Source: Candidatus Latescibacterota bacterium (GTDB taxonomy: Bacteria; JAAXHH01; JACQVL01). Taken from it: DNA of 23,278 nt. Positions 5,137 to 22,051 of the stretch are shown in pieces (the first letter of the stretch is position 1; every line of letters begins with the position of its first letter). The translations under genes and the position numbers were made by a program. The stretch covers positions 1 to 23,278 of the forward strand of contig JACQVL010000188.1 of NCBI GenBank assembly GCA_016209865.1, written 5' to 3'. Under the pieces are notes generated by a model. It made no database searches. It had not been told where the DNA came from and saw only the letters and a list, made by a program, of their open reading frames with translations.

Positions 5137-6408
5137 CTACCTCTGGAATCGGACCCCAGAAGGATGATTAGAGCCGTGAATCTGTGAATGGCAATTCTGG
5201 CACGACCGGTTGAAGACAAACCGGCTGGCGACCGGCTGCGGCGTGGTCGGATGCCGTGCCTCGATATGGCACCGCTGGCAGAGCCTCGGCCGCTCGGACT
5301 TCAGCAGCGAGGCGTGATTCGACCCGTGCGGTTCGTGGCAGTTCAGGCAGCTCTCCGCCACCGGCGGGTGCTCCCAGAGGAACGGCCCGCGCTTCTCGGC
5401 ATGGCACTTGTAGCAGGTCTCGTTGACCGAATCGGCGGATAACAACTTCTCTGCGGTGGTGCCGTGCGGGTTGTGGCAATCGGTGCAGGTCACCTTTGCC
5501 TCGCGAAGCGGCATGTGGCTCGTCCGCTGCAACTGGGCACGCCGGACTTGATGGCACTGGAAGCACACCTCCATCTCCTGTTGTTTGGCCAGGAGCCTTC
5601 GGTCGGAGGCCGGCGCCATGATCTTGTGACAATCCGCGCAGACCATATCCCTCGACTCGTGCGCACTTCCTCGCCAGGAGAAGCGTAAGCCCCTCTCGTG
5701 GCACGCCAGGCAGGCTGCGTTCTTGTCATGAGCCGAAGCCGACGACACATCGTTAAAGCGGATGATGGTACGGAGGTCACTCGGGTTCTGCGCGTGCCGG
5801 TCCCCATCGCCATGGCAGACGGCGCAGGTCGTCGCGATGTCGGAGCGACTGTCCTCTTCCGGCCAGGCCTTCGCGTGAATGTTACTCTCGAACTGTTTCA
5901 CCACCGCCGCATGGCACACGCGGCAGTTACCCTTTCCCAGCATGGAGGCAGGCACCGGGGGGCGAGTCGTGGACACCACCGATGGAGGGGTATCCAGACT
6001 CACCACATAGGCCACTAAATCGTTGAGTTCTTCCTCTGAGCCACGGAAAGAGGGCATAGAAAGCGGCGGAGTCGGTCCTTTGGGGTCTTTCTTCTGGATG
6101 ATCAGCATCCCCTCCAGGATCTTTTGCCTCAGTTCCGGGATAGTGTAACCCTCTGCCACCTTGATTAATCCCGCCACCTGCTCGGCGGTGATGGCGTTCT
6201 TATTCCTGACCCCACCGGCCCCACCGCTGCCGTGACAGACGAAACACCCGTACTTCTGGTAGGCCACTCCGCCGCGGTCGATGGCTGCTCGATCCGGGGC
6301 CGGCTGAGTCACCTGGCCTTGCTGTGCGGCTGCTTCCCCTGTCGGCAGGAAGACTATCCCCAGGATGACGAGCAGAAGCAGCCATCCTTTCTTGACACGG
6401 TTACTCAT
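5137..6408 (-). CDS. 11-haem cytochrome: monohaem class I domain fused to an MtrA/DmsE-type decahaem domain
   Basis: A 423-residue exported protein (signal peptide about 1-28, ending EAAA-QQ). Residues 46-138 are a class I cytochrome c domain with CFVCH at Cys55 and Met118 (LSMPSF) as axial ligand. A Pro-rich linker (141-155) leads to ten further CxxCH motifs at Cys162, 195, 233, 257, 282, 308, 332, 354, 377 and 403, with the NCRVCHAAVVKQF start and C.DCHNPHG / CLNCHEPHGS motifs of the MtrA/DmsE decahaem family. The decahaem part should sit inside the barrel encoded next. I infer that the extra monohaem domain projects into the periplasm as a built-in electron entry or exit port. Usual MtrA proteins lack it; PioA has a different N-terminal extension. 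The ATG overlaps the stop of the upstream response-regulator gene, implying translational coupling. Confidence 0.92.
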   Translation of the reverse strand: MSNRVKKGWLLLLVILGIVFLPTGEAAAQQGQVTQPAPDRAAIDRGGVAYQKYGCFVCHGSGGAGGVRNKNAITAEQVAGLIKVAEGYTIPELRQKILEGMLIIQKKDPKGPTPPLSMPSFRGSEEELNDLVAYVVSLDTPPSVVSTTRPPVPASMLGKGNCRVCHAAVVKQFESNIHAKAWPEEDSRSDIATTCAVCHGDGDRHAQNPSDLRTIIRFNDVSSASAHDKNAACLACHERGLRFSWRGSAHESRDMVCADCHKIMAPASDRRLLAKQQEMEVCFQCHQVRRAQLQRTSHMPLREAKVTCTDCHNPHGTTAEKLLSADSVNETCYKCHAEKRGPFLWEHPPVAESCLNCHEPHGSNHASLLKSERPRLCQRCHIEARHPTTPQPVASRFVFNRSCQNCHSQIHGSNHPSGVRFQR

Positions 6409-6808
6409 ACTCCTTCACCTCCTTCTCAATCGAGCAAGCAGGGACACCGTCTAAGTGCGGAATTCGTTGCAAGATCGATCGCAGTGTCATGACCACCTCC
6501 CTGAACTTGAATGGTTTGTTGAACATCCCCGAGAGGTCGGTTTCGATCCCTGGTGGGGCGTCGAATGCGGCCATCAAGAAGGTGTGTGCACTCGGACGCC
6601 AGGTTTTCACGACCCGTAATAACTCAAGACCATCAGTGCCGGGCATCCGCCTATCTGAAATGACAGCATCGAATGTGCCCTGCTGGAGCCGGGTAAGCGC
6701 CTCACGCCCGTCGTACACGTGCTCGACCGTAAAACCCTGGGTCGCCAGGTATCGGGCGAAGTAGTCACAAAAGGTCTTTTCATCATCCACGACCAGGATT
6801 CGGGCCAT
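6401..6808 (-). CDS. Stand-alone response-regulator receiver domain, first gene of the cytochrome operon
   Basis: A 135-residue CheY-like protein with an intact phosphorylation site: the acidic pair Asp8/Asp9, acceptor Asp52 (VISDRRMPGTDG), and the Lys in FNKPFKF. The usual Thr/Ser is Ala (FLMAAFD). No output domain follows; only a short tail remains after the receiver. ATG 6808 is used because the fold starts there (MARILVVDDE) and GGGAGG lies upstream. It is the first gene behind the sigma-54 type promoter at 6841-6855, and its stop overlaps the start of the 11-haem cytochrome gene. It may take phosphate from the nearby histidine kinase or another kinase and pass the signal by protein contact. 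Confidence 0.88.
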   Translation of the reverse strand: MARILVVDDEKTFCDYFARYLATQGFTVEHVYDGREALTRLQQGTFDAVISDRRMPGTDGLELLRVVKTWRPSAHTFLMAAFDAPPGIETDLSGMFNKPFKFREVVMTLRSILQRIPHLDGVPACSIEKEVKEYE

Positions 6809-6840
6809 CGCGCCATCCTCCCTCCATCCCCGCAATCAAG

Positions 6841-6855
6841 GCAAACCACATGCCA
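6841..6855 (-). promoter_or_regulatory. Sigma-54 (-24/-12) promoter of the cytochrome-conduit operon
   Basis: On the minus strand TGGCATG-TGGT-TTGC matches TGGCACG-N4-TTGC, with the obligatory GG and GC separated by exactly ten bases. The predicted transcript would start near 6829, about 20 bases before the ATG at 6808. The site lies directly after a terminator-like hairpin that would stop read-through from the activator gene upstream. Confidence 0.8.
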
Positions 6856-6891
6856 GAAAATAAAAATGCCACGATCGCTTCGCGATGTGGC
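6856..6891 (-). terminator. Intrinsic terminator after the sigma-54 activator gene
   Basis: On the minus strand GCCACATCGC and GCGATCGTGGC pair with one bulged base around a GAA loop (6868-6891). An A/T run rich in T on that strand follows (6856-6867). It lies about 160 bp after the stop of the activator gene and directly ahead of the promoter of the next operon, so it would separate the two transcripts. Confidence 0.7.
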
Positions 6892-6911
6892 TTGGTGGAG
6901 AAAGCCTTACA

Positions 6912-6942
6912 GGGATACAATCCCCACATCATACGGTGGGGA
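6912..6942. repeat. Two overlapping, mutually exclusive dyads
   Basis: TCCCCAC (6921-6927) and GTGGGGA (6936-6942) form a perfect 7-bp stem. GGGAT (6912-6916) and ATCCC (6920-6924) form a perfect 5-bp stem that uses the same ATCCC bases, so only one can form at a time. The pair lies in the leader region between the activator gene and the cytochrome operon. It could be an RNA structure in the activator transcript or a protein site; its function is not known. Confidence 0.45.
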
Positions 6943-6968
6943 ATATCACAACGTCAGCGGGGAGACAC

Positions 6969-6981
6969 GGACATTTTGTCC
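6969..6981. promoter_or_regulatory. Putative activator-binding dyad, site 1
   Basis: GGACA-TTT-TGTCC is a perfect 13-bp dyad centred about 146 bp upstream of the predicted start of the cytochrome operon. This is a normal distance for an enhancer site of a sigma-54 activator. A near-identical dyad lies 71 bp further upstream. The assignment to the activator encoded at 7052-8440 is inference from sequence and position. Confidence 0.6.
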
Positions 6982-7039
6982 ATATCTTTCAGCGCTTCAT
7001 GGCATGATCTTACAGAGGTCCAATGAGATAGTCGAAGTA

Positions 7040-7052
7040 AGACATTATGTCC
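7040..7052. promoter_or_regulatory. Putative activator-binding dyad, site 2
   Basis: AGACATTATGTCC contains the perfect dyad GACAT-T-ATGTC and matches site 1 at 11 of 13 positions. It touches the stop codon of the activator gene and lies about 217 bp upstream of the predicted start of the cytochrome operon. Two similar spaced dyads are typical of enhancer sites for oligomeric sigma-54 activators. Confidence 0.55.
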
Positions 7053-8440
7053 TACTGGTTGACCTCCTCGTCAAGGGGGAGAGAAGGGGCCTCGCCGTTC
7101 CGGAGTCGCCGGTGTAAATGTCGTTCGCTGATGCCGAGGATGCGTGCGGCCTGGCGTTTATTCCCGCTGACCGCCTGCAAAACTTGCTCGATGTATTGAT
7201 CTTCGATTTGCCGGAGGGGTTGGAGAGAGCCATTCGGTTCCGTCTCACGGAGTCTGGACGCTGCGCGGAGGGTCTCGGGCAGATCCTGCGGCGCGATGAC
7301 ATCCCCTGCCGAGAGGATCATCGCGCGTTCGATCACGTTCTCCAGCTCCCGGACGTTTCCGGGCCAGGTGTACTGGCAGAGGAGGTGTATCGCGTCAGGG
7401 GAGATTCTCTTCTTGTTCTTGCCGGAGATCCGGGAATGTGCGGCGAAGTGGGCAGCCAGGAGCGGGATATCGTCTCTCCGGTCACGGAGCGGGGGGATGA
7501 CGATGGAGATCACGTTGAGCCGGTAGAACAGGTCTTCCCGGAACTTTCCCTGTGACACCAGCGCCTCAAGGTCCTTATTCGTCGAGGCCAGGACCCGGAC
7601 GTCCACCTGGATGTCCTTCGTACCCCCCAGACGCCGGAATGTTTTTGTTTCGATCACCCGGAGGAGCTTGGCCTGGATGGTGGGACTGATCTCCGTGATC
7701 TCATCCAGGAAGACCGTGCCCCCGGTGGCGACCTCGAACAGGCCGTGCTTCAGGCTGACCGCTCCAGTGTACGCGCCTCGCTCGTGTCCGAACAACTCGC
7801 TCTCCAACAGGTTCTCCTGCAACGACGTGCAGTCGATCACGACGAAGGGGGATTTTGCCCGGAGGCTGTTCGTGTGGATCGCCCGGGCGACGAGCTCTTT
7901 GCCAACTCCGCTCTCCCCCCGGATGAGGACGGTGGAGTCCGTCATGGCCACCTTACCGATCATGTCCAGGACGGTCTGCAGTGCCGGGCTGTGTCCGATG
8001 AACCCGAACGCCTGCCCGCACCCACAGCGCGAGAGCTCGTACTGCAGGGTGACATTTTGTCGAGTCAGCAGGCTCTTCTCATAGGCTTTTCGAACCGTGA
8101 CCTCGACCTGATCCAGCTCACAGGGTTTGGTCAGGTAGTCATACGCGCCGCTCTTCATCGCGGCGATCGCATTCTCCACCGTCCCGTGCCCAGTGAGCAT
8201 GACGACCTCGGTTGCCGGCGCCCGTTCCCTTACGGTTTGCAGGACCGCCAGGCCATCCATACCGGGCATTTTGATGTCGAGCAGCACCACGTGAAGTCCA
8301 CCGCCATCGATCCGGGTGAGGGCTTCCTCCCCATCCGCCGCCGCTGTCACGTCGAACCCCATCTTGCGGAGTTCCTTGCTGATCACCGTGCGAAACATTT
8401 CGTCGTCATCGACGACGAGAAGATTGATCCGTTCACCCAC
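7052..8440 (-). CDS. NtrC/ZraR-family sigma-54 dependent response regulator
   Basis: A 462-residue activator. The receiver domain (1-120) has acidic residues 11-13, phospho-acceptor Asp55 (LLDIKMPGMDG), Thr83 and Lys105. The AAA+ domain has Walker A GESGVGKE (175-182), the sigma-54 contact loop GAYTGA (222-227, Tyr in place of the usual Phe), and Walker B FLDE (244-247). A Fis-type helix-turn-helix (NKRQAARILGISERHLHRR) closes the protein. A Cys139-Gly-Cys141 pair in the linker between receiver and AAA+ domain is unusual and might respond to metal or redox state. The GTG start at 8440 follows a G-rich ribosome binding site and overlaps the end of the kinase gene, so the two are co-translated. 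Four sigma-54 type promoters lie in this window and are its obvious candidate targets. Confidence 0.95.
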   Translation of the reverse strand: MGERINLLVVDDDEMFRTVISKELRKMGFDVTAAADGEEALTRIDGGGLHVVLLDIKMPGMDGLAVLQTVRERAPATEVVMLTGHGTVENAIAAMKSGAYDYLTKPCELDQVEVTVRKAYEKSLLTRQNVTLQYELSRCGCGQAFGFIGHSPALQTVLDMIGKVAMTDSTVLIRGESGVGKELVARAIHTNSLRAKSPFVVIDCTSLQENLLESELFGHERGAYTGAVSLKHGLFEVATGGTVFLDEITEISPTIQAKLLRVIETKTFRRLGGTKDIQVDVRVLASTNKDLEALVSQGKFREDLFYRLNVISIVIPPLRDRRDDIPLLAAHFAAHSRISGKNKKRISPDAIHLLCQYTWPGNVRELENVIERAMILSAGDVIAPQDLPETLRAASRLRETEPNGSLQPLRQIEDQYIEQVLQAVSGNKRQAARILGISERHLHRRLRNGEAPSLPLDEEVNQ

Positions 8441-10430
8441 GCGCGATCCCCCCTTCTGTGCTCATTTCGACAGGACTGTCGCTCTCATCCGCAGCGGAGG
8501 GAAACGTAGCGATGAACGTACTCCCGCCCCCCACACGGCTCGTGACCTCGATCGTGCCGCCATGGCGTCTGACGATACTCTCACAGATCGATAGTCCTAA
8601 CCCGGTCCCTTTGCCGACCGGTTTCGTGGTGAAGAATGGCTCGAAGATTCGTGGGAGGTGTTCCTCCGGAATCCCGCATCCGGTGTCCGTGACCGTGAGA
8701 TGTACCCTATCGTCGCTGGAGCGAGTCGTGACAGACACGGTTCCGGTTCCGTTGATCGCATCCAGACCGTTCAGGATGAGGTTCAAGAGGAGTTGCCCGA
8801 CCTGGGCTTTGTCCCCGCTGATCGAGGAGACCTCCTGATCGAGGTGGATCGTCACACGTTTCCCTTCGAGTTCTGCTTCATGATCGACCAGGGAGATAAC
8901 CTCCTGCGCCACGTCATTGATGTTGACCGACTCGAAGATGGGCGCGGCCTGGCGGGAGAAGCTCAGCAGCTTCTCGGCGGTTCGTTTGCACCGGTAGGTG
9001 GCCTTCCGGATGATCTCCAGGTATTCCGGGAGGTCATCCAACTCGCCAAGGTTTGTGGGGGTGACCCGGCGCTGGAGCCCTTCAACACAGGCCGCGATCG
9101 AGGCCATCGGGTTATTGATCTCGTGGGCGACGCCAGCGGCTAATCGTCCCAACGACGCGAGTTGTTCGGACCTGACAAGCTGGGCTTGTGCATCCCGCAG
9201 CTCCGTGAACGCCTGTTCCAACGCCGTGCGCTGTTCCTTGAGTGAAGCGGCCATGCTGTTGAATTGATGGGTCAGCCGTCCCAGCTCATCGCTCGTCTGG
9301 ACCGGAAGACGATGATCGAAGTCGCCGCTCGCGATGACCTCCGTCCCTCTGGTCAACTGGATGATCGGCCGGGTGAAATACCGGGTGACCCGGAACCCAA
9401 CCACGACGCCCACCCCGGCACTTACGAGAAGGAACGCGCCGAGGATCATCCTGAATGACGCGATTGACGCAAAGAGGACACGCCGGGGGATGCTATGAAA
9501 GATGACATAAAAGCGTTTCGGATCGATGGGGTCGTAGAGGAGCGGGACGTAGGCGATGATTTCGTCCCGGTTCTCCGTGAGGGTTCCGGAGCCGCCAGAC
9601 AGGATCGTCGACGCGATCGAGGCGGGATAATCGTAGTAGAGGGTATTATCTGGCTGAGTGGCCAGTAATTGTCGCCATTCCTTTTTCTTCCCCGGATGGT
9701 ACAGGTAGAACCCGTCCTGGTTGACCAACACGGTCTTTCCGCCCGGACTCATCGGAGTTTCGATGAGCCTCTTGAAGAAGTCCTGCGCGAACACATCCGT
9801 GATGAGGAGCCCGCGGCGGTCTCCTCCACTGTCGAAAACAGGGGTGACACAACTGAGGACGGGGATCAACTGCCCTGGCACCCCATCTGACTGAACCTCC
9901 CTGGGGATGAAGACGACTTCACCAGGGTGCAACCCATTCGCCTGGAAGAAGAAGTAAGGCTCACGGTGGGGATGGAGCCGTTCCTGAGGGACGATCACCG
10001 GCCGGACACCGTCCGAATTGATCTGCACCACGGTCGTCCCGGTTCCATCCATGTAACGGATCTGATAGTAGATCTTCTTATGCCATGAGAACACGAAGAA
10101 CGCCTCGTCGACCAACCGGCGCCACCGGGCTACTTCTTGTTCGTCCCCCTGTTCGGTTGCCTGCATGAAATACCGCAGGGGGACAGAATCCCTCAGGAAG
10201 AGAATATCCCCCCGCATTCCCGTCAGAAAATTTTCTGTCTTCTCCTTGACGACGGCGACATCATGGCTGACGTGGTCGACGCCAGAGGCTTCTAATGCCC
10301 GGCTGCTCGTGTAGATGGCATACGCCCCGATGAGCAGGAGGGGGACAACCGACAGCCCGACGAAGGCGCCAGTAAGCCGTGCCCGGATGTTCAACCGTGA
10401 GATGATGTCATTCAACCATCGACGCCACAT
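8433..10430 (-). CDS. Membrane sensor histidine kinase with periplasmic double-Cache-like domain
   Basis: About 665 residues. A first membrane segment (about 20-42) leads to a large periplasmic domain of some 275 residues, with a Cache-like pattern (YYQIRYMDGTG, VTPVFDSGGDRRGLLITDVF, TVLVNQDGFYLYHPG). A second membrane segment (about 325-350), a HAMP linker, a short coiled coil, HisKA with the phosphorylated His near 436 (AGVAHEINNPM) and HATPase (N box NLILNGLDAI, DTGCGIP, FEPFF, GKGTGLGLS) follow. This order is that of ZraS/NtrB-like kinases paired with sigma-54 activators. ATG 10430 is preferred to GTG 10439 because GAGGTG lies six bases ahead of it. The gene overlaps the activator gene and starts behind a -24/-12 promoter. 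Copper or another metal is a reasonable signal given the divergent efflux operon, but the ligand cannot be read from sequence. Confidence 0.93.
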   Translation of the reverse strand: MWRRWLNDIISRLNIRARLTGAFVGLSVVPLLLIGAYAIYTSSRALEASGVDHVSHDVAVVKEKTENFLTGMRGDILFLRDSVPLRYFMQATEQGDEQEVARWRRLVDEAFFVFSWHKKIYYQIRYMDGTGTTVVQINSDGVRPVIVPQERLHPHREPYFFFQANGLHPGEVVFIPREVQSDGVPGQLIPVLSCVTPVFDSGGDRRGLLITDVFAQDFFKRLIETPMSPGGKTVLVNQDGFYLYHPGKKKEWRQLLATQPDNTLYYDYPASIASTILSGGSGTLTENRDEIIAYVPLLYDPIDPKRFYVIFHSIPRRVLFASIASFRMILGAFLLVSAGVGVVVGFRVTRYFTRPIIQLTRGTEVIASGDFDHRLPVQTSDELGRLTHQFNSMAASLKEQRTALEQAFTELRDAQAQLVRSEQLASLGRLAAGVAHEINNPMASIAACVEGLQRRVTPTNLGELDDLPEYLEIIRKATYRCKRTAEKLLSFSRQAAPIFESVNINDVAQEVISLVDHEAELEGKRVTIHLDQEVSSISGDKAQVGQLLLNLILNGLDAINGTGTVSVTTRSSDDRVHLTVTDTGCGIPEEHLPRIFEPFFTTKPVGKGTGLGLSICESIVRRHGGTIEVTSRVGGGSTFIATFPSAADESDSPVEMSTEGGIARG

Positions 10431-10484
10431 CGCGCTCACCTCATCAGTCCCACGTTCGCAGTGACAGAGCTAAATATTTAAAAC

Positions 10485-10500
10485 AGCAAAGAGTGTGCCA
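10485..10500 (-). promoter_or_regulatory. Sigma-54 (-24/-12) promoter of the kinase-activator operon
   Basis: On the minus strand TGGCACA-CTCT-TTGCT matches the sigma-54 consensus with the correct ten-base GG/GC spacing. Transcription would begin near 10474, about 44 bases before the kinase ATG at 10430. It lies back to back with the promoter at 10522-10537, suggesting positive autoregulation as in the divergent zraP/zraSR arrangement. Confidence 0.78.
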
Positions 10501-10521
10501 TGACCCTGAGTTGAGGATGTC

Positions 10522-10537
10522 TGGCACGCATTTTGCT
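10522..10537 (+). promoter_or_regulatory. Sigma-54 (-24/-12) promoter of the copper-efflux operon
   Basis: TGGCACG-CATT-TTGCT is a perfect consensus match with the correct spacing. Transcription would start near 10548, about 57 bases before the ATG of the first gene. Only 21 bp separate it from the divergent promoter at 10485-10500. I see no dyad like those at 6969 and 7040 close by. Confidence 0.85.
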
Positions 10538-10604
10538 GCAATAAATCTCATGGAACAAACTTTGCATCCCGGTTGTTTTTTATCTGCGATGGATGGAGGT
10601 GTTC

Positions 10605-11024
10605 ATGGTCCGTAAGGTCTTTATCGTCCTGTTGCTGGTGTCCGTCTTCCTCCCGGCTTCATCCGTCTGCGCGTTCGCCCATGATTGTGGCACCGCAGAA
10701 CGCGACGTTGTCGCCAGTGGTCACTGCGGCGATCGACCGGAGCAGACGACTGCGCCTGGCCCTGACCAGGGCAGGACAGGGATCGTTTCCTTCTCCATGC
10801 CTGGTGCCTCGTGCTGCCCGAGCATGGAACCGAGTGAAGCGCGCCCTGCGGTCACGCTCACCTCAAGCCCTCTCGGGAATGACCAAAGCGCTCCGCCTGT
10901 CTGGCTCGTGCAGCGTATTGAAGCGAGTGTTCAGCCGTCGCACCCGATCTCGCTGAACGGTCTCGTTTCTTCCCTTCCTTCTCCTCGCCAGCTCTACTGC
11001 CTGTATTCCTCGTACCTGATCTGA
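10605..11024 (+). CDS. Small Cys-rich exported protein, first gene of the efflux operon
   Basis: A 139-residue protein I do not recognise. A clear signal peptide (MVRKVFIVLLLVSVFLPASS, cleavage likely after CAFA) precedes a mature part beginning HDCG. The mature part has five Cys (HDC, GHC, a SCCP pair, LYC near the C-terminus) plus His and Met, and is otherwise rich in Pro, Ser and Gly with little predicted structure. GGAGGTG five bases before ATG 10605 decides the start. It is the first gene after the consensus sigma-54 promoter and precedes cusC-, cusB- and cusA-like genes. I infer a periplasmic metal-binding or sensing accessory protein, comparable in position though not in sequence to ZraP or CusF. 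Function is not shown. Confidence 0.75.
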   Translation: MVRKVFIVLLLVSVFLPASSVCAFAHDCGTAERDVVASGHCGDRPEQTTAPGPDQGRTGIVSFSMPGASCCPSMEPSEARPAVTLTSSPLGNDQSAPPVWLVQRIEASVQPSHPISLNGLVSSLPSPRQLYCLYSSYLI

Positions 11025-11100
11025 TCGTCCTTCGATCGCTCACGGTCCCGTGGCCGTGTACCGTTGCTGACCGTCTGATTTCTCCTTAAAATCATCAGAG

Positions 11101-11213
11101 CCTAACCCCCGGCCCCTTCCTGGGCAGATGGGCAGTAGGCAGATAGGCAGTGGGGTGACTGCCCACTGCCCATTGCCCACCTGCCTGGTCGGGAATGGGG
11201 TCGGGGGGTTAGG
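11101..11213. repeat. Long imperfect inverted repeat built of simple motifs
   Basis: Arms of about 50 bases begin CCTAACCCCC at the left and end GGGGGGTTAGG at the right. Inside are iterated GGCAGT/GGGCAG units on the left and their complements (ACTGCCC, TTGCCC) on the right. The bases 11101-11120 are identical to 17250-17269 at the end of the cusA-like gene. The element fills the gap between the Cys-rich gene and the cusC-like gene and could form a long RNA hairpin within the operon transcript. Confidence 0.8.
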
Positions 11214-11233
11214 AAGATTCATGAGGTCTCTGT

Positions 11234-12505
11234 ATGACACGTATCCCCCTGCTCTGTGCTATGACACTCTGGATGACCGTCTTCGGGCTGCACATCGACG
11301 CACACGCCCAGCACCCGGATGAGCCGACTGTCACCCTCCGCGACCTGCTGACCGAGGCGCGTCAACGCAACCCGGACATCCGGGCAGCCCGCGCTCGCGT
11401 GAACGCGGCGCAATACCGGGTTCCCCAGGCGGGCGCGCTTCCCAACCCGTCTGTGATGTACGAACTGAATAACATCGGGCTGTCGAGCTTCTCCATCGGC
11501 CGGACGGATATGAGCATGACCGGGCTGTCGTTCGTCCAGGCCATCCCGTTCCCCGGCAAACGCGGGCTGCGGACGCAGGTCGCGGCAACCGATGTGCAGA
11601 TCAACGAAGCGAGCGCTACGGCAACCGAATTCGACGCGCTCTCTCAGCTCAAAGTCGCCTATTACGACCTCTACCTGATCCACCAATCGCTCATCATCGT
11701 GGACAAGAACCGGGAACTGCTGATGACGTTCGCGCGAACAGCCGAGGCGCGGTACGCGGTCGGCACCGGCATCCAGCAGGATGTGCTCAAGGCGCAGGTG
11801 GAGATTTCCCGACTGATCGAGCGCCGCAAGCGTCTGGAGCAACGTCAGCAAGCGGTGGAGGCGAGGATCAACAGCCTGCTCGCCCGCCCCTCGACGACCC
11901 CGGTCGGCCGTCCGGCCGAGGTGACCCGGACTCCGCTTCAGTCTACGCTGGACGACCTGATCACGATGGTCGACCGCCAGGCCCCCCGTGTACGGACGCA
12001 AGACCGTATGATCGAGCGCCAGCAGACGGGAGTCGCATTGGCGAAACGAGACTATTACCCCGACTTCGACGTGAGCGCCAGTTGGCTCACGCGCGGCGGG
12101 CTGCCGGACATGTACCAGGTCCGCGTCGGTGTGGAGCTGCCGCTCTATTACCGGCGGAAGCAGCGGAATATGGTGGCAGAGACCCAGGCGATGGTGGCGG
12201 AAGCGCAGGCGGAACGAGACGCGACTAAACAGATGTTCTTAGCCGAGGTCCGGGACCAGTACGCGATGGCCCAGACTGCCAACGAGCAGGCCGACCTGTA
12301 TGAGCAGGCGATCATCCCGCAGGCGACGCTGTCGTTAGAGTCGGCGGTCGCGGGCTATGAAGTGGGAAAGGTGGATTTTCTCACGTTGCTCGACAACCTG
12401 ATGTCGCTGTTAGAGGACGAGCTGAGTTATTACGAGAAAGTCGTCGAGCACCAGCAGGCGCTCGCCCGGCTGGAACCGCTGGTCGGGGCGACGTTGGTGG
12501 AGTGA
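11234..12505 (+). CDS. cusC: TolC-family outer-membrane efflux protein, CusC/CzcC-like
   Basis: A 423-residue outer membrane factor with a signal peptide (cleavage near AHA-QH, residue 25). Two repeated outer-membrane-efflux domains follow: the first has RNPDIRAARARVNAAQ and a barrel hairpin around ALPNPSVMYELNN; the second has AKRDYYPDFDVSAS, a GLPDMYQVRVGVELPLYYR strand and a long coiled coil ending GYEVGKVDFLTLLDN. It should trimerise and form the exit duct of the CusCBA efflux pump. There is no N-terminal lipidation Cys of the kind found in E. coli CusC. A GAGGT motif lies about eight bases before the ATG. It is flanked by repeat elements on both sides. The family is certain; copper specificity rests on the CusA- and CusB-like partners. 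Confidence 0.92.
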   Translation: MTRIPLLCAMTLWMTVFGLHIDAHAQHPDEPTVTLRDLLTEARQRNPDIRAARARVNAAQYRVPQAGALPNPSVMYELNNIGLSSFSIGRTDMSMTGLSFVQAIPFPGKRGLRTQVAATDVQINEASATATEFDALSQLKVAYYDLYLIHQSLIIVDKNRELLMTFARTAEARYAVGTGIQQDVLKAQVEISRLIERRKRLEQRQQAVEARINSLLARPSTTPVGRPAEVTRTPLQSTLDDLITMVDRQAPRVRTQDRMIERQQTGVALAKRDYYPDFDVSASWLTRGGLPDMYQVRVGVELPLYYRRKQRNMVAETQAMVAEAQAERDATKQMFLAEVRDQYAMAQTANEQADLYEQAIIPQATLSLESAVAGYEVGKVDFLTLLDNLMSLLEDELSYYEKVVEHQQALARLEPLVGATLVE

Positions 12506-12517
12506 GGGGATAAGGAT

Positions 12518-12598
12518 GAATGGGAGAGTGGGGGAATGGGAGAAAAAGAAGCGATCGCTCCCACTCGCTCACTCCCCCACTCCCCCATTCTCCCATTC
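12518..12598. repeat. Inverted repeat of GGGAG/CTCCC simple motifs
   Basis: The left arm starts GAATGGGAGAGTGGGGGAAT and the right arm ends with its near-complement (CCCCCATTCTCCCATTC). The perfect palindrome AGCGATCGCT lies in the loop region (12550-12559). The element fills the gap between the cusC- and cusB-like genes. It stays open in the cusB frame and would add a spurious 37-residue N-terminus if the start were placed at 12520. Confidence 0.8.
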
Positions 12599-12630
12599 TT
12601 TCTCTGTCCTTTATCACAGGAGCAGTCACT

Positions 12631-13974
12631 ATGAAGACGAAGCGCATTGTCGGTCTGGTGTTCGTGGCAGTGATTGTAGCTGCCGCCGGATACTTCCTCT
12701 ACGCCCGTAACCAGGGGAAGGTGGATTATACGGAACACGCCGCAGCCGGTGCGGATACAACAGCCATGACGGGGCATGAGGGGCACGACATGGCGAAGAT
12801 GGAAGAGCAGAAGCCGGGCGGGCCGAAGAAAATCCTCTACTACCGCGACCCGATGCACCCTGCGTATACTTCCCCGAAGCCAGGGACAGCGCCCGATTGC
12901 GGGATGGACCTCGTCCCGGTCTACGAAGGCGAGGAAGCGGTGACCGTCACTGTACCCGGACTGGCGACCGTGACCATCAGCCCGGAGCGGCAGCAGTTGA
13001 TCGGAGTCAAGACTGAAGTTGTCACACGGCAGACATTGGACAAAACGCTTCGCACCGTAGGCCGTGTGGATTACGACGAACGCCGGCTCGCTCATATCCA
13101 CACGAAGACCGAAGGCTGGATTCAGCACCTACACGTCGATTACACCGGCCAGCTCGTCCAGAAGGGACAACCGCTCCTGACGATCTACAGTCCGGAGTTG
13201 GTCGCCACCCAGGAGGAATACCTCCTCGCTCTCAGGGGACGCCAGTCACTCACCAAGAGCCGGTTTACCGACGTGGCTGCGGGCTCGCAGTCCCTCGTCG
13301 AATCGGCACGACGGCGCTTGCAACTCTGGGACATTTCGGACGAACAGATCGCCCAGCTTGAGAAGGCCGGGAAACCCCAGACGATGATGACCCTCTACTC
13401 TCCAATCCAGGGGTTCGTCGTCGAGAAAATGGCGTTCGAGGGGAAGAAAGTCGACGGGAGTGAGGACCTGTACCTGATCGCGGACCTCTCCGCTGTCTGG
13501 GTGTACGCCGATATCTACGAGTACGAACTCCCGCTCATCAAGGTCGGACAACCCGCCTCCGTCACCCTCTCGTACGAGCCGGGTAAGATATTCACTGGGA
13601 AGGTCGTCTACATCTATCCGGCTCTCGATCCAATGACGCGGACGGCGAAAGTGCGAGTGGAGTTTGCCAATCCGGGCTGGACGTTGAAACCCCAGATGTA
13701 CGCGAACATCGAGATCAAGACCGGGCAGGGGGAAGGCCTGGTCGTCCCGGACGGGGCGGTGCTCGACTCGGGCACGCGGCAGATCGTGTTCGTGGACAAA
13801 GGGGGCGGCCGGTTCGAGCCACGTGAGGTCAAAGTGGGACTACACCTCACCGGAGCCTATGAGATTCGCGCCGGTCTTCAGGAAGGGGAACGGGTCATCA
13901 CGAGCGCGAATTTCTTGATCGACTCGGAGAGCCAGCTCAAGGCGGCCATCGGGCAGATGGGGATGAAACATTAA
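12631..13974 (+). CDS. cusB: CusB-like periplasmic adaptor of copper/silver efflux, with heavy-metal-binding domain
   Basis: A 447-residue membrane fusion protein. A membrane anchor or signal (about 5-24) is followed by a His/Met-rich stretch (GHEGHDMAKM). The heavy-metal-binding domain typical of CusB-type adaptors comes next (YYRDPMHPAYTSPKPG, then APDCGMDLVPVYE). Lipoyl/hairpin domains (TEGWIQHLHVDYTGQLVQKG; GFVVEKMAFEGKKV), a beta-barrel and a membrane-proximal domain (GEGLVVPDGAVLDSG) complete the fold. It should bridge the CusA-like pump and the CusC-like duct and deliver Cu(I)/Ag(I). ATG 12631 with AGGAG eight bases upstream is chosen; a longer reading would translate the intergenic repeat. 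The next gene starts 30 bp after the stop. Confidence 0.93.
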   Translation: MKTKRIVGLVFVAVIVAAAGYFLYARNQGKVDYTEHAAAGADTTAMTGHEGHDMAKMEEQKPGGPKKILYYRDPMHPAYTSPKPGTAPDCGMDLVPVYEGEEAVTVTVPGLATVTISPERQQLIGVKTEVVTRQTLDKTLRTVGRVDYDERRLAHIHTKTEGWIQHLHVDYTGQLVQKGQPLLTIYSPELVATQEEYLLALRGRQSLTKSRFTDVAAGSQSLVESARRRLQLWDISDEQIAQLEKAGKPQTMMTLYSPIQGFVVEKMAFEGKKVDGSEDLYLIADLSAVWVYADIYEYELPLIKVGQPASVTLSYEPGKIFTGKVVYIYPALDPMTRTAKVRVEFANPGWTLKPQMYANIEIKTGQGEGLVVPDGAVLDSGTRQIVFVDKGGGRFEPREVKVGLHLTGAYEIRAGLQEGERVITSANFLIDSESQLKAAIGQMGMKH

Positions 13975-13978
13975 CAAC

Positions 13979-13994
13979 GTTAACACGTTCGAAC
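13979..13994. repeat. Two-unit 8-bp GTTNNAAC-type repeat between cusB and cusA
   Basis: GTTAACAC and GTTCGAAC keep the same 8-bp period and GTT..AAC pattern as the five-unit array at 855-894. Its end overlaps the start of the GAGG ribosome binding site of the cusA-like gene. Confidence 0.55.
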
Positions 13995-14004
13995 GAGGTT
14001 TATT

Positions 14005-17000
14005 ATGATCAACCGCATCATCGAATACTGCGCGACCCATAGATTCGTCGTGTTTCTGTTCATCGCGGCGCTCGTCTTCGCCGGGCTGTGGTCGATGCTG
14101 AACGTCCCGCTGGATGCCATCCCTGATTTGTCAGATACGCAAGTGATCATCTATTCCCGCTGGGATCGCAGTCCGGACATCATGGAAGACCAGGTGACCT
14201 ACCCGATCATCACCGCGATGCTGGGCGCGCCAAAGGTGAAAGACATCCGGGGCTTTTCCGACTTCGGCTACTCCTACGTCTACGTCATCTTCGACGAAGG
14301 CACGGACATCTACTGGGCACGGTCGCGGACGTTAGAGTACCTGAGCAGCATCCTCCCCCGGCTGCCGCAGGGGGTGCAGGTCGAACTGGGGAAGGACGCG
14401 ACCGCCGTCGGCTGGGTGTTCCAGTACGCCTTAGTCGATACGACCGGCCAGCACAGTCTGGCGGAGCTGCGGAGCTTTCAGGACTGGTACCTCCGGTACG
14501 CCATCCAGAGTGTGCGCGGAGTGGCTGAAGTCGCCCCGGTCGGCGGGTTCGTGCGACAGTACCAGGTGAACATCGACCCGAACAAGTTAGCCGCGTACAA
14601 CATTCCCCTGGAAGAAGTCATCGAGAAAATCCGGATGAGCAATAATGATGTTGGCGGACGGTTGGTGGAGTTCACCGGACGAGAATACATGGTCCGCGGA
14701 CGCGGGTACGCCCGTTCGACGACCGACCTGGAGCAGACCGTGGTGATGGTCAACCCGCAGACCGGGACACCCGTGCTGGTGCGGGATTTGGGGACGGTCA
14801 CGCTTGGGCCGGACATCCGGCGGGGTCTGGCCGAGCTGGACGGGAAGGGGGAGACGGTCGGAGCGATCGTCATCATGCGGTACGGGGAGAACGCACTCAA
14901 GGTGATCGATCGAGTCAAGGAACGGCTGAAGGACCTCGAACCGACACTCCCGCAAGGGGTGGAGATCGTCACCACGTACGATCGGGCGGAGCTGATCGAG
15001 CGGTCGATCGAGACGCTGAAGGACACGCTGACCGAGGAACTGGTCATCGTCAGCCTGATCATCCTGATCTTCCTGTGGCACATCCCGAGCGCGATGATTC
15101 CGATCGTGACCATCCCCATCACGATCATCATCGCCTTCATCCCGATGAAGATGATGGGGTTGACCTCCAACATCATGTCGTTAGGCGGGATTGCGATCGC
15201 TATCGGGGCGATGGTGGACGCGGCGATCGTCGTCGTCGAGCAGACGCACAAGAAATTAGAGCACTGGGACGCGGAAGGCCGGCCGGGACGGTACCAGGAT
15301 GTCGTCATCAGCGCCGTGAAGGAAGTCGGAGGGCCGAGTTTCTTCGCCCTGCTCGTCATCGCCGTCTCGTTCATCCCGGTGTTCACCTTAGAAGGCCAGG
15401 AAGGCCGGCTGTTCAAGCCGCTTGCATTCACGAAGAACTTCTCGATGGCCATCGCGGCGGTGCTGGCGATTACCCTCGACCCGGCGATCCGACTGCTGTT
15501 CACCCACATGAAGGCATACAACTTCCGGCCGCGGGCGCTGTGCGCCCTCACCAACGCGGTGCTCGTCGGGACGATCCACAGCGAGGAGCGCCATCCGTTG
15601 AGCCGCATCCTCATCCGGATGTACTATCCGGTCGTCGAGTTCGTCCTGCGCCGCCCCTGGAAGGTGATCATCGCGGCGATGCTCATCGTGGCCGCGACCG
15701 TGCCAATCTACGGGCGGCTCGGGTCGGAGTTCATGCCCCCGTTGAATGAGGGGGTCATCCTCTACATGCCCACCACCCTGCCGGGTCTGTCTGTGGCCGG
15801 AGCAACCGACCTGCTCCAGACGCAGGACAAACTCCTCCGCGCGTTCCCGGAAGTCGAGCGGGTGTTCGGCAAGGCGGGACGGGCGGAGACGGCAACCGAC
15901 CCGGCTCCCTTCTCCATGATGGAGACGGTGGTGGTGTTGAAGCCGGAAGCTGAGTGGCGGGAAGTCCCGACCTGGTACTCGTCCTGGGCACCGGAATGGC
16001 TCAAGAAGCCGCTCCGTCATTTCTGGCGGGACCGGATTACAGTTGAGCAACTCACGGCGGAGATGGACAAGGCACTCCAATTGCCTGGCACAACCAATGC
16101 CTGGACGATGCCCATCAAAGCTCGTGTGGACATGCTGACGACCGGCGTCCGCACCCCGGTGGGCATCAAAATTCTCGGACGAGATGTTCAGACGATCCAG
16201 CAGATCGGGGAGCACATCGAGATGGCCCTGAAAGACGTGCGCGGGTCGCGGTCGGTCTACGCCGAGCGGGTGGCGGGCGGGTACTTCCTCGACTTCACGC
16301 TCAAGCGGCCAGAACTCGCCCGGTACGGGCTGACGGTCATGGACGTGCAGAACGTCATCATGTCCGCCGTCGGCGGGGAGAATGTGACGACGACCGTGGA
16401 GGGTCGCGAGCGGTACCCGATCAACGTCCGCTACCTGCGGGATTTCCGGAGCAGCGTCGACCGGCTCCGCCGGACGCTCATCGCCACGCCCAGCGGGGCG
16501 CAGGTCCCGATGGCGCAAGTCGCAGACGTCCAGCTCCTCTCCGGTCCGTCGATGATCCGCGACGAGAACGGCATGTTGAGCGGGTACGTCTACGTAGACG
16601 TGGCCGACCGGGACATCGGGGGCTACGTCACGGAAGCGAAGCAGGTCATCCATGAGAAAGTCCAGCTTTCGCCCGGCTACAGTCTCGTCTGGAGCGGACA
16701 GTACGAGTACATGGAGCGGGTCAAGGACCGGCTAATCGTTGTCCTCCCGTTGACGTTCTTCATCATCTTCGTCCTGCTCTACTTCAACACCGGGTCGGTG
16801 GTGAAGACGTTCATCATCTTTCTCGCCGTGCCGTTCTCGGCGGTCGGGGCGATCTGGCTGCTCTACTTCCTCGGCTACAACATGAGCATCGGCGTGTGGG
16901 TCGGTCTGATCGCGCTGATGGGGGTGGATGCGGAAACGGGAGTGTTTATGCTGCTGTACCTGGACCTCGCCTACGAGGAGATGCGCAAGAACGGCCAGAT

Positions 17001-17298
17001 GCGGTCGTGGAACGACCTGCGGGAGGCGATCATCCACGGCGCGGTCAAGCGGGTGCGCCCGAAGGTCATGACGGTGGGCGTCATGTTTATGGGACTGTTC
17101 CCCATCATGTGGTCGACCGGGGCGGGGGCGGACGTGATGAAGCGGATCGCCGCGCCGATGATCGGGGGGATTTTTACGTCGTTCATCATGGAACTGGTCG
17201 TCTACCCGGCGATCTACGCGATCTGGAAGTGGCACAGCGAGGTGAAGCGCCTAACCCCCGGCCCCTTCCCTGAGAGGAACGAAGGAGGTTCAGCATGA
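14005..17298 (+). CDS. cusA: CusA-like heavy-metal RND efflux pump (copper/silver type)
   Basis: A 1097-residue inner-membrane proton antiporter with the two repeated halves of 12-helix RND pumps. Copper/silver type is supported by three Met in the contexts of the E. coli CusA substrate triad (Met573, Met623, Met672): YMPTTLPG, FSMMETVV and RVDMLTTG. The proton-relay acidic residue is present in GAMVDAAIVVVEQ, the Glu in GVDAETGVFML, and the Lys in RVRPKVMTVG. It is about 50 residues longer than E. coli CusA. An inserted segment around WYSSWAPEWLKKPLRHFW lies in the periplasmic pore domain, and the last 15 residues (LTPGPFPERNEGGSA) are encoded by an interspersed repeat. A GAGG motif seven bases ahead supports ATG 14005. 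The stop overlaps the next start (ATGA). Confidence 0.96.
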   Translation: MINRIIEYCATHRFVVFLFIAALVFAGLWSMLNVPLDAIPDLSDTQVIIYSRWDRSPDIMEDQVTYPIITAMLGAPKVKDIRGFSDFGYSYVYVIFDEGTDIYWARSRTLEYLSSILPRLPQGVQVELGKDATAVGWVFQYALVDTTGQHSLAELRSFQDWYLRYAIQSVRGVAEVAPVGGFVRQYQVNIDPNKLAAYNIPLEEVIEKIRMSNNDVGGRLVEFTGREYMVRGRGYARSTTDLEQTVVMVNPQTGTPVLVRDLGTVTLGPDIRRGLAELDGKGETVGAIVIMRYGENALKVIDRVKERLKDLEPTLPQGVEIVTTYDRAELIERSIETLKDTLTEELVIVSLIILIFLWHIPSAMIPIVTIPITIIIAFIPMKMMGLTSNIMSLGGIAIAIGAMVDAAIVVVEQTHKKLEHWDAEGRPGRYQDVVISAVKEVGGPSFFALLVIAVSFIPVFTLEGQEGRLFKPLAFTKNFSMAIAAVLAITLDPAIRLLFTHMKAYNFRPRALCALTNAVLVGTIHSEERHPLSRILIRMYYPVVEFVLRRPWKVIIAAMLIVAATVPIYGRLGSEFMPPLNEGVILYMPTTLPGLSVAGATDLLQTQDKLLRAFPEVERVFGKAGRAETATDPAPFSMMETVVVLKPEAEWREVPTWYSSWAPEWLKKPLRHFWRDRITVEQLTAEMDKALQLPGTTNAWTMPIKARVDMLTTGVRTPVGIKILGRDVQTIQQIGEHIEMALKDVRGSRSVYAERVAGGYFLDFTLKRPELARYGLTVMDVQNVIMSAVGGENVTTTVEGRERYPINVRYLRDFRSSVDRLRRTLIATPSGAQVPMAQVADVQLLSGPSMIRDENGMLSGYVYVDVADRDIGGYVTEAKQVIHEKVQLSPGYSLVWSGQYEYMERVKDRLIVVLPLTFFIIFVLLYFNTGSVVKTFIIFLAVPFSAVGAIWLLYFLGYNMSIGVWVGLIALMGVDAETGVFMLLYLDLAYEEMRKNGQMRSWNDLREAIIHGAVKRVRPKVMTVGVMFMGLFPIMWSTGAGADVMKRIAAPMIGGIFTSFIMELVVYPAIYAIWKWHSEVKRLTPGPFPERNEGGSA
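17250..17290. repeat. Interspersed repeat forming the 3' end of the cusA-like gene
   Basis: Bases 17250-17269 are identical to 11101-11120 (CCTAACCCCCGGCCCCTTCC). In frame they encode LTPGPFPER, the familiar translation of this kind of intergenic repeat. The element also supplies the GAAGGAGG ribosome binding site of the next gene. Confidence 0.85.
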
Positions 17299-17909
17299 GT
17301 ACGCGTGTTCAGCGTGGAGGTGTATCCATCGTCCTGGCGATGCTCTGCACCATGCTGCCCATCGCATCGTCTGCGCAGCATCATGGGGGGATGGATCATC
17401 AGGGAATGGCTGGACGTACGAGCGTCATTGTCGGGACGACGGAGGTGGCGCTGGAGGTCGTCGGAGCGGAGCCGGGGAAGGCGGGACAGGTTCTGGTTCG
17501 ACTGACGGATCGGCGCGGCGGGACCCCGATTTCGGACGCGACGGTGACGGTCGATGTCGAACGGATGGATGAAGCGAAGATGGACAGCACGCACCGGATG
17601 GAGGGGATGGACATGGGGGGTGAGAAGGCCGGATTACCAGCTGTCGAACGCGAAGAGAAGGGGGTGTATGTGCATCAGTACCAGTTCGACAAGTCAGACG
17701 GCACGTACCGCATCACCGCGCAGGTCTCAGCCCTCGGCGGGCGTCCGCTCGACACGCCGATCAGTGTGACGGTGACGCACACCGTCGCCAAGAAGAGCGG
17801 GCGAGGGATGATGGGCATGATGCATCCCATGCCTTCCGGGGTGTGGGGTATCGCGGCCATCAGCGCGGTGATGGTCGGGATGATGGTGCTTCGGGTTGTT
17901 CTGTTTTGA
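17295..17909 (+). CDS. Exported YtkA/FixH-like protein with His/Met-rich ends, membrane-anchored
   Basis: A 204-residue protein with a signal peptide ending SSA-QH (residue 27) and a metal-ligand-rich N-terminus (QHHGGMDHQGMAG). An immunoglobulin-like domain of the YtkA/FixH type follows (EVALEVVGAEPGKAGQVLVR, then GTYRITAQV). It carries a Met-rich insert (RMDEAKMDSTHRMEGMDMGG). The C-terminus has MMGMMHPMPSG and then a membrane segment (about 178-204). GAAGGAGG lies ahead of ATG 17295, which overlaps the cusA stop. In related proteins this fold sits in the periplasm and is often linked to copper handling. I infer a periplasmic Cu-binding accessory of the pump. The stop is followed by 244 bp that carry the next promoter; I see no clear terminator. 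Confidence 0.8.
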   Translation: MSTRVQRGGVSIVLAMLCTMLPIASSAQHHGGMDHQGMAGRTSVIVGTTEVALEVVGAEPGKAGQVLVRLTDRRGGTPISDATVTVDVERMDEAKMDSTHRMEGMDMGGEKAGLPAVEREEKGVYVHQYQFDKSDGTYRITAQVSALGGRPLDTPISVTVTHTVAKKSGRGMMGMMHPMPSGVWGIAAISAVMVGMMVLRVVLF

Positions 17910-18042
17910 ACATGACGGCATCAACATCGTAAAGCTCATCATCAGATGGGGGTCCGGCTACAGCAGCGACTCGGCTGGAAGCGGACGCGTTCGTGAAGAC
18001 AAGAAAGATGACCTTGCTGCGGTAGTAAACCGGCTACTCTTC

Positions 18043-18058
18043 AGGCATAGTTTTTGCT
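18043..18058 (+). promoter_or_regulatory. Sigma-54 (-24/-12) promoter of the Met-rich protein / phosphoketolase operon
   Basis: AGGCATA-GTTT-TTGCT has the invariant GG and GC at the correct ten-base spacing and a full TTGCT -12 element; only the first T of the -24 box is changed. Transcription would start near 18069, about 85 bases before the ATG at 18154. It lies in the 244-bp gap after the efflux operon. Confidence 0.7.
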
Positions 18059-18153
18059 GCTTGAAAAAATAGTCCATTCACGATGAATCAATCGTCATCC
18101 ATCGACCAGAACCCGGTGACTGTGTCACCACACCACAACCACGGAGGCACGTG

Positions 18154-18675
18154 ATGAGAACGTCATTGAAACCCTCGACAAGCGCTATCGGAGTCCTGGT
18201 GCTTGCCCTGGCCCTGGGAACGGCAGCCTGGGCGCAACAACAACATCGACACGGCTCCGGCTCAGGGATGGGCACCCAGCAACCACAGATGAGCACGATG
18301 ATGCAGCAGCACATGACTCAGATGGGCAACATGATCCAGAGGATGGATCAGCTCCAGGAGCGCTGTACCCAGATGACGCAAAGTATGGACCAGATGCTCC
18401 AGCGGTCCCAGAACCCGGAGAACTTACAGCGGATGCGCGACATGATGAGCATGATGGGGACTATGGCCAAGCAGACGAAGTCCCTCATGGAAAACCTCCG
18501 GACCACCATGCAAGGCCAGCTTATGATGCAAGACGAGGCCATGGCCCCGCACATGACGAAAATGCAAGACCACCTCAACGCCATGACGGAGCAGATGGAC
18601 GGCGCAGTCCGCACGATGGAGGCGATGACCCAGCAGATGGCCCGGACGAAGACGCCAGGCCCGAAGAAACCGTAA
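18154..18675 (+). CDS. Met-rich exported helical protein, probable periplasmic metal binder
   Basis: A 173-residue protein with a signal peptide (cleavage near AWA-QQ, residue 27) and a mature part with about 29 Met in roughly 146 residues. Gln is also abundant, there are a few His (HRHGSGSG, QQHM) and one Cys (QERCTQM). The rest is low-complexity and strongly helical with heptad-like spacing (MIQRMDQLQERC, MTKMQDHLNAMTEQMDGAV), suggesting a coiled coil. GGAGG six bases upstream fixes ATG 18154 rather than GTG 18151. It is the first gene behind the promoter at 18043. Such Met arrays bind Cu(I)/Ag(I), as in PcoE/SilE- or CopK-like proteins, but I see no true homology to these. I infer a copper sponge or chaperone; exact family unknown. 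Confidence 0.78.
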   Translation: MRTSLKPSTSAIGVLVLALALGTAAWAQQQHRHGSGSGMGTQQPQMSTMMQQHMTQMGNMIQRMDQLQERCTQMTQSMDQMLQRSQNPENLQRMRDMMSMMGTMAKQTKSLMENLRTTMQGQLMMQDEAMAPHMTKMQDHLNAMTEQMDGAVRTMEAMTQQMARTKTPGPKKP

Positions 18676-18679
18676 CACG

Positions 18680-19606
18680 ATGCTGAAGCGAAAGGAACCG
18701 GCCGCCGTGGCTTCTCGATGTTTCCCCCGTGACCGCACCCGTCGCCTGTTCGGCCTCATCCTGGCTGTCCTCTCTGTCGCCTGGTTTGGAGAACCGCTCG
18801 ATACACATGCCGGAGGACTCACCTACTCCGGAACCCTCCGCCTCGCCTCCGGGAGCTACATCGATACGACCCGGACGACCAGTTATTACCTGTTCTCCGG
18901 CGTGCGGTACACGGCCGGCCGGCTCCAACTCGGTGCCAGCACCGCGCTCATCCTGCAGAACACCGACTTAGTGGCCAACTCCGGGGCCGGCATGATCCCC
19001 TTCAATCGCCAGCATGGCGACAGCCAGCGCCGACATTCGCAATCGCCGGGCGGCGGGTCTCACGACAGCCCGATGATGAAACCCCTCATCGACGGCACCG
19101 GCACACGCCAGATGACCGCCGGGTTGGGAGACCTGTTCTTCAACGCCGACTATACTGTACACGCTGGCGGCAGCAACCGCCCGATCATCACGTTGACGAC
19201 CCAAATCAAGCTGCCGATTGCGAATGCCTCATCAGGGTTCGGGACCGGAGAGACGGATGGCCGGGCGGGCGTGGTCATCAGCCATCCGATCAGAACCAGC
19301 TTGATCATGGCCGATCTCGGCTACCTGTTCTTAGGCGATCCGCCCACCGTCGATTTCCGGAATGCCATGAGCTATGGATTCGGCTACGGTCAGTCGTTTC
19401 GAGGAGGACGGTATACCCTGGCCGTCTTCTACTCGGGCACGACCCGGATCGTGGACGGATACCCGCCTCCGCGGGAACTGAGCCTCGGCATGAATTACCG
19501 GGCCTCATCTCAGACTATAATGAATGTCTCCTTCTCGTTCGGACTCAGCGAGACGACCCCGGATGTCGGATTCTCCATCGGCACCACCCTCACTCTTGTC
19601 CCATGA
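18680..19606 (+). CDS. Outer-membrane beta-barrel protein of unknown role (MetA-degradation/'transporter' type)
   Basis: A 308-residue exported protein (or about 299 if GTG 18707 is used; AAAGGA lies some 11 bases before that GTG, while ATG 18680 has no good ribosome binding site). The signal segment ends near THA-GG. The rest alternates polar and hydrophobic residues, with Gly/Tyr-rich strands (TTSYYLFSGVRYTAGRLQLG, MSYGFGYGQSF, YTLAVFYSGTTRI) typical of a 10- to 12-strand barrel. It resembles the loosely defined phenol-degradation-associated transporter group. An exposed loop is rich in His, Gln and Ser (RQHGDSQRRHSQSPGGGSH). Position between a Met-rich metal binder (5 bp gap) and phosphoketolase (30 bp gap) gives no firm function. 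The C-terminus (TLTLVP) lacks the usual terminal aromatic residue. Confidence 0.7.
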   Translation: MLKRKEPAAVASRCFPRDRTRRLFGLILAVLSVAWFGEPLDTHAGGLTYSGTLRLASGSYIDTTRTTSYYLFSGVRYTAGRLQLGASTALILQNTDLVANSGAGMIPFNRQHGDSQRRHSQSPGGGSHDSPMMKPLIDGTGTRQMTAGLGDLFFNADYTVHAGGSNRPIITLTTQIKLPIANASSGFGTGETDGRAGVVISHPIRTSLIMADLGYLFLGDPPTVDFRNAMSYGFGYGQSFRGGRYTLAVFYSGTTRIVDGYPPPRELSLGMNYRASSQTIMNVSFSFGLSETTPDVGFSIGTTLTLVP

Positions 19607-19636
19607 ACGGTAAGCCCTGAAGAAGGAGGAACGATC

Positions 19637-22036: not shown

Positions 22037-22051
22037 GGAGGATTCCCGCTC

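Follow-up and report, generated by a model that had tools for sequence, protein, structure and literature searches.

Predicted sigma-54 promoters around an NtrC-type two-component system flanked by an outer-membrane electron conduit and a Cus-type efflux operon

Overview

The 23,278-nucleotide window analysed here (contig C134 of a metagenome-assembled Candidatus Latescibacterota genome of 3.75 Mb, 83% complete) encodes a histidine kinase and an NtrC-type sigma-54 activator between an 11-haem outer-membrane conduit operon and a Cus-type efflux operon, with predicted sigma-54 promoters ahead of all three and a weaker sigma-54-like site ahead of a phosphoketolase/acetate kinase operon (Table 1). 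We lean towards reading this arrangement as a locally acting sigma-54 two-component system, similar to ZraSR and CorSR, that drives its own promoter, those of the Cus operon and probably that of the conduit operon, with the phosphoketolase operon as a possible addition. The dCache-domain kinase would phosphorylate the NtrC-type activator, and the phosphorylated activator would bind at and switch on its own sigma-54 promoter (10485-10500), making the system autoregulatory, and the back-to-back Cus promoters at 10522 and 10551. It would probably also drive sigma-54 RNA polymerase at the conduit promoter (6840-6855), using tandem GGACA-N3-TGTCC dyads as enhancer, and the phosphoketolase/acetate kinase operon (18043), for which there is less evidence, may be a further member. 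Local co-control of some of these promoters is likely.

Table 1. Genes, predicted promoters and other sequence features of the window.
Feature	Position	Strand	Evidence and remarks
Rest of conduit operon: second receiver, two monohaem and one c7-type cytochrome, molybdopterin oxidoreductase	1-2894	minus	Cut by window end
MtrB/PioB outer-membrane barrel	2885-5122	minus	PF11854, 1.3e-127
11-haem MtrA/PioA-like cytochrome with N-terminal cytochrome c domain	5137-6408	minus	11 CXXCH; TIGR03508, Pfam
Single-domain receiver, first gene of conduit operon	6401-6808	minus	Domain search; receiver at same place in L049, L050 and L051
Predicted sigma-54 promoter TGGCATGTGGTTTGCC	6840-6855	minus	Receiver-MtrA-MtrB conduit operon; matrix 14.5 bits, rank 4; 32 nt ahead of ATG 6808
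Intrinsic terminator, hairpin then ATTTTTATTTT	6868-6891	minus	Ends kinase-NtrC operon just ahead of conduit promoter; -14.7 kcal/mol, z -4.1
Dyad GGACAAAATGTCC, candidate enhancer (UAS) of conduit promoter	6969-6981		~122 bp upstream of -24
Second dyad GGACATAATGTCT, candidate enhancer	7040-7052		~190 bp upstream of -24
NtrC/ZraR-type sigma-54 activator	7052-8440	minus	Receiver, AAA+ with GAYTGA, Fis HTH (Pfam, sequence); PDB neighbours NtrC1/ZraR
Sensor histidine kinase	8433-10439	minus	Periplasmic dCache domain, HAMP, HisKA, HATPase; same sensor in L049/L050
Predicted sigma-54 promoter TGGCACACTCTTTGCT	10485-10500	minus	Kinase-NtrC operon; exact consensus, 18.7 bits, rank 1
Predicted sigma-54 promoter TGGCACGCATTTTGCT	10522-10537	plus	orf143-CusCBA-YtkA-like operon; exact consensus, 18.3 bits, rank 2; divergent from 10485
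Extra tandem sigma-54-like site TGGAACAAACTTTGCA	10551-10566	plus	Precedes orf143/Cus; 15.6 bits, rank 3
orf143, CusC, CusB (heavy-metal-binding domain), CusA (Met triad present), YtkA-like protein	10593-17909	plus	Profile and alignment
Weaker sigma-54-like site AGGCATAGTTTTTGCT	18043-18058	plus	Precedes Met-rich/OMP/phosphoketolase/acetate kinase operon; 14.2 bits, rank 5; 2 mismatches to consensus
Met-rich secreted protein (17% Met), predicted outer-membrane protein, phosphoketolase, acetate kinase	18151-23278	plus	Profile and composition

Sigma-54 sites in the window

The four GG-N10-GC sites listed in the preliminary description of this DNA were all recovered among the five best matrix matches on the two strands of the window; the remaining one, a tandem site at 10551-10566 (+) ahead of the Cus operon, is absent from that list. 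The sigma-54 sites of the window display the GG-N10-GC core with TGGCAY and TTGC boxes, the 18043 site having an A instead of the first T of the TGGCAY box. All five top-scoring sites face a gene and lie in promoter-position gaps, within the 988 bp (4.2%) of the window that are noncoding. Scored with a matrix that approximates published sigma-54 frequencies, and on which the bit scores and ranks depend, matches of at least 14.46 bits occur 0.14 times per shuffled window. A matrix-free search with WGGCAYN5TTGC returned five matches in the window, where chance predicts 0.10 (0 of 100 shuffles), namely the four previously listed sites and an intragenic one inside cusA (16070). The distances from site to start codon (~32, 54, 55-67 and 92-95 bases) agree roughly with the 20-90 bases given earlier, and transcripts starting 12 bases past each GC would precede ATG 6808, ATG 10430, ATG 10593/10605 and GTG 18151. 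An alternative start of the first receiver gene at TTG 6835 was discarded in favour of ATG 6808. Sigma-70-type promoters, which the preliminary description had named as evidence against its proposal, were sought at the Cus and phosphoketolase promoters, and no good sigma-70-like site was found at either. The predicted sites are very probably genuine sigma-54 promoters. The window contained no match to any Rfam RNA family.

Confidence is lowest for the 18043 site, because TGGCACN5TTGC shows no enrichment in the window when two mismatches are allowed (19 matches against 19.5 expected) and because the AGGCA form, which has two matches in the window, also occurs at 16070 within cusA. With its two mismatches the site is thus at chance level by mismatch count, and it could be a chance match, the phosphoketolase operon being transcribed by read-through from the Cus operon or from an unrecognised promoter. 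Such read-through is possible, since no terminator-like site is found between the Cus and Met-rich operons (17909-18151). We nonetheless consider this explanation rather unlikely: the site has the fifth best matrix score, stands in the correct orientation in a 241-bp gap, and has no sigma-70-like site as a competitor there.

Sigma-54 promoters and activators across the genome

A profile search of the genome identified one RpoN (PF04552, 3.4e-61) and 14 clear sigma-54 activators, 13 of them besides that of the window. The preliminary description had called for the sites to be compared with chance also at this level, and genome-wide counts, which rest on the strict pattern TGGCAYN5TTGC and not on the matrix, gave 37 sites against 11 for a reversed control. 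A strict site lies within 5 kb of 8 of the 14 activators, compared with 1.1 expected (p ~3e-6, a calculation in which the sizes of two contigs were assumed). Three strict sites each surround the activators on contigs C109, C16 and C134, the last being the window. The gathering of sigma-54 promoters around activators is therefore a habit of this genome, which supports local control in general and also means that the window is not exceptional in this respect.

On C109 (locus L137), three strong sigma-54 sites (695, 7601-7616 and 8004) surround another activator in a comparable multi-promoter local cluster, whose neighbours, judged by eye, include formate-tetrahydrofolate ligase, alanine dehydrogenase and CoA-transferase. 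Palindromes next to the sigma-54 sites of this locus (ATTCCCGC..GCGGGAAT, at 650-671 and 7649-7670) were rejected as enhancers, since they look like a dispersed repeat of the genome. A second back-to-back pair of sigma-54 sites occurs on C16 (locus L138, 1952-1967 and 1985-2000), 17 bases apart in a layout like that of 10485/10522, near another activator with what by eye is a PAS-like N-terminus.

The conduit operon and its candidate enhancer

The conduit operon places an MtrB/PioB barrel beside an MtrA-family multihaem cytochrome, as is characteristic of MtrAB/PioAB conduits. It shares with the MtrAB/MtoAB/PioAB porin-cytochrome conduits the combination of an MtrB/PioB barrel and a DmsE/MtrA-family decahaem domain (PMC5566968), but differs from them in an eleventh haem contributed by the N-terminal cytochrome c domain, in the receiver genes within the operon, and in a c7 cytochrome and a Mo-oxidoreductase that are also present in the relative L049. 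The strong terminator at 6868-6891 separates this operon from that of the regulator, so that the conduit operon needs a promoter of its own.

Upstream of the conduit promoter, the two dyads of Table 1 form a tandem GGACA-N3-TGTCC pair at distances typical of enhancers, one of them overlapping the end of ntrC. With one mismatch allowed, such a dyad should turn up by chance roughly once in 23 kb, which makes the closeness of the two notable, and we infer from the sequence that they are candidate sites of the window activator. The motif occurs at 12 places genome-wide, that at 6969 included; the other places are mostly within open frames and none lies beside a sigma-54 site, and the motif was rejected as a genome-wide regulon marker. 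It is absent from the kinase/Cus gap and from the region ahead of 18043. An enhancer common to all promoters was also sought, through a listing of palindromes, a scan of GACA/TGTC spacings and a de novo dyad search, and was rejected as not above random regions, the de novo search detecting no spaced dyad common to the three regulatory regions beyond what random regions gave. Degenerate, weak or distant common enhancers are possible.

Relatives in other genomes

To our knowledge, the regulation of MtrAB/PioAB-type conduits has been little explored except in a handful of model bacteria. With the MtrA-like protein as query, 84,980 species genomes were scanned and yielded relatives at 31-60% identity. 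The order kinase-NtrC-receiver-MtrA-MtrB is found in L049 and L050 (Bacteroidota) and in L051 (Latescibacterota), and a kinase-NtrC pair lies near the conduit in the Acidobacteriota loci L055, L057, L059 and L093. The two best plus-strand sites in the 21 kb of L049 precede the kinase (18.4 bits) and receiver-MtrA (12.5 bits); L051 has TGGCACGGTTCTTGCC (15.4 bits) ahead of receiver-MtrA, and L052 (Acidobacteriota) has TGGCACCGGGCTTGCC (13.0 bits) ahead of MtrA and followed by a good start codon. In L050 the counterpart of the conduit site is weak (GG-N10-GT) and the kinase gene has no clear site. A search for more such loci within the taxonomic class of L049 added one, which is ended by a contig edge.

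Further along, the operon of L049 encodes a c7-type cytochrome and a Mo-oxidoreductase resembling those of the window. Between 9995 and 20206 of L049, the conduit operon goes on with a cupredoxin-like protein, the c7 cytochrome, the Mo-oxidoreductase and an NrfD-like membrane protein, all assigned by eye except for the c7 and Mo matches; this gene content suggests coupling of the conduit to a quinone-linked complex.

Among the loci compared, the best match of the window kinase, sensor included, is to the kinases of L049 and L050. The NtrC proteins of L049 and L051 were rejected as orthologues of the window NtrC, from which they stand apart in the tree and differ in their recognition helices. 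Well-supported branches of the activator tree force at least two separate pairings of such activators with conduits. The conduit-linked activators are thus not one group, and sigma-54 two-component control of conduits appears to recur, partly with different activators; the sequences suggest that this kind of system became associated with a conduit on two or more occasions, in different phyla. This recurrent pairing offers a rule, open to testing, by which the building of MtrAB/PioAB-type wires in uncultured bacteria might be predicted. It supports the conduit promoter and autoregulation, and not the links to Cus or phosphoketolase: no relative with Cus or phosphoketolase linked to the activator was found, this linkage occurring in the source genome only, and at the thresholds used there are no kinase or phosphoketolase orthologues in the other 15 of the 16 genomes that represent the phylum in this comparison.

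These results also bear on how many activators operate in the window. The sites may be real sigma-54 promoters under two or more activators, with the local NtrC running its own and the Cus promoters and the conduit and/or phosphoketolase operons answering to other activators through enhancers of their own. The distinct tandem dyad at the conduit promoter alone and the want of a motif common to the promoters point in this direction, and the 13 other activators of the genome could serve any promoter. We judge this division of labour unlikely, given that sigma-54 sites of this genome tend to gather near activators and that a conduit beside a sigma-54 two-component system recurs across phyla.

The preliminary description had gone further and suggested that all four of its promoters form one regulon under the window activator. 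Spelled out with the present annotation, a single sigma-54 activator whose dCache sensor is of the small-molecule type would switch on, as one regulon, the conduit and Mo-family oxidoreductase, the pump for Cu(I) efflux, phosphoketolase/acetate kinase and the genes of the two-component system itself. The proposal is supported in part, by very probably genuine sites, an encoded RpoN, activators that adjoin sigma-54 promoters beyond chance, and autoregulation and conduit control that recur in other phyla. Four strong-to-moderate sites around one activator also speak for it, as do the three sites found near each of two other activators of the genome, and phosphorylated activators can act from weak or distant sites. 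The extension to all four promoters under one activator and one signal fared less well: the dyad is confined to the conduit promoter, no common enhancer was found, 18043 is the weakest site, 13 other activators are encoded, and the Cus and phosphoketolase linkages have no counterpart among the relatives. We therefore hold the single regulon to be possible though doubtful. If true, it would tie extracellular electron flow to copper export and acetyl-phosphate supply, and the link to copper export would sensibly protect haem maturation and periplasmic redox proteins. The alternatives discussed here are not mutually exclusive, so that our estimates of their likelihood overlap.

Sensor, signal and comparison with known systems

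As the preliminary description stated, the activator is a full-length member of the NtrC family. It has a receiver, a sigma-54 AAA+ domain whose GAFTGA-type loop reads GAYTGA, and a Fis HTH. The ZraSR-ZraP system of enteric bacteria is autoregulated, and its two-component genes and a metal/envelope stress gene are read from divergent sigma-54 promoters (PMC4987338). The window likewise pairs an NtrC-type regulator and a kinase with divergent sigma-54 promoters, 10485(-)/10522(+), for the kinase-regulator and a stress operon, yet its proteins miss the equivalog cut-offs (ZraR 422 vs 760 bits, ZraS 185 vs 479), its divergent operon is a Cus pump and its sensor is a dCache domain. Judging by domains and promoter layout, it is built like ZraSR without being classed as ZraSR.

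Other pairings within the window have precedents as well. In Myxococcus xanthus, CorSR provides a sigma-54 response regulator for copper genes, and the curA cluster carries four putative sigma-54 promoters and includes a cytochrome c-like gene (PMC3707914), but the multicopper oxidase and CopA ATPase of curA share one operon, whereas the Cus pump, outer-membrane conduit and phosphoketolase of the window lie in separate operons. In Geobacter sulfurreducens, sigma-54 control extends to cytochromes of extracellular electron transfer (OmcB) (PMC2725144), a global RpoN effect on a different conduit family, in contrast to the single local activator proposed here. In Desulfovibrio vulgaris, the response regulator DVU3023 acts on an operon with acetate kinase, and the authors mention a possible acetyl phosphate effect (PMC3333781); unlike the window, its target is a lactate utilisation operon without phosphoketolase, metal pump or conduit. 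The earlier remark that no described regulon has this content accordingly stands for the combination, since conduit, Cus and acetyl-phosphate genes in one place were not described in the literature searched, and not for the single pairings, each of which has a precedent.

The sensor model (pLDDT 64, modest) matched in fold the dCache domains found in kinases and in chemoreceptors (2p7j, 3lid). At this pLDDT, and with three sequences compared (window, L049 and L050), the dCache match and the lack of Met and Cys among the invariant sensor residues speak against a periplasmic Met/His sensor for Cu/Ag of the CusS type. Because it is an ordinary dCache domain without conserved Met or Cys, the modelled sensor lends no support to copper as the signal, which is possible; a small molecule or a redox/envelope cue appears more likely than copper itself.

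CusA keeps all three methionines of the E. coli CusA triad (aligned YMPTTLPG, FSMMETV and RVDMLTTG; we take the E. coli residues to be M573, M623 and M672), so the pump is of Cu/Ag type. This triad, the heavy-metal domain of CusB, the abundance of Met in the Met-rich protein and the CorSR precedent (PMC3707914) would all suit a copper-sensing switch whose regulon is a copper stress response. We regard such a switch as unlikely in view of a sensor resembling those of small-molecule chemoreceptors, of sensor residues conserved with L049/L050 that include no Met or Cys, and of the L049/L050 conduits, which have no Cus neighbour.

Two minor observations concern annotation and a further locus. The annotated start of CusB is probably too far upstream (window 12520-12640), the signal peptide seeming to start at MKTKRIVG after a stretch that resembles translated noncoding DNA. 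In genome G020, a related activator (49% identical) and a kinase lie near a Mo-oxidoreductase like that of the window and a further membrane protein (L202, 7749-18001).
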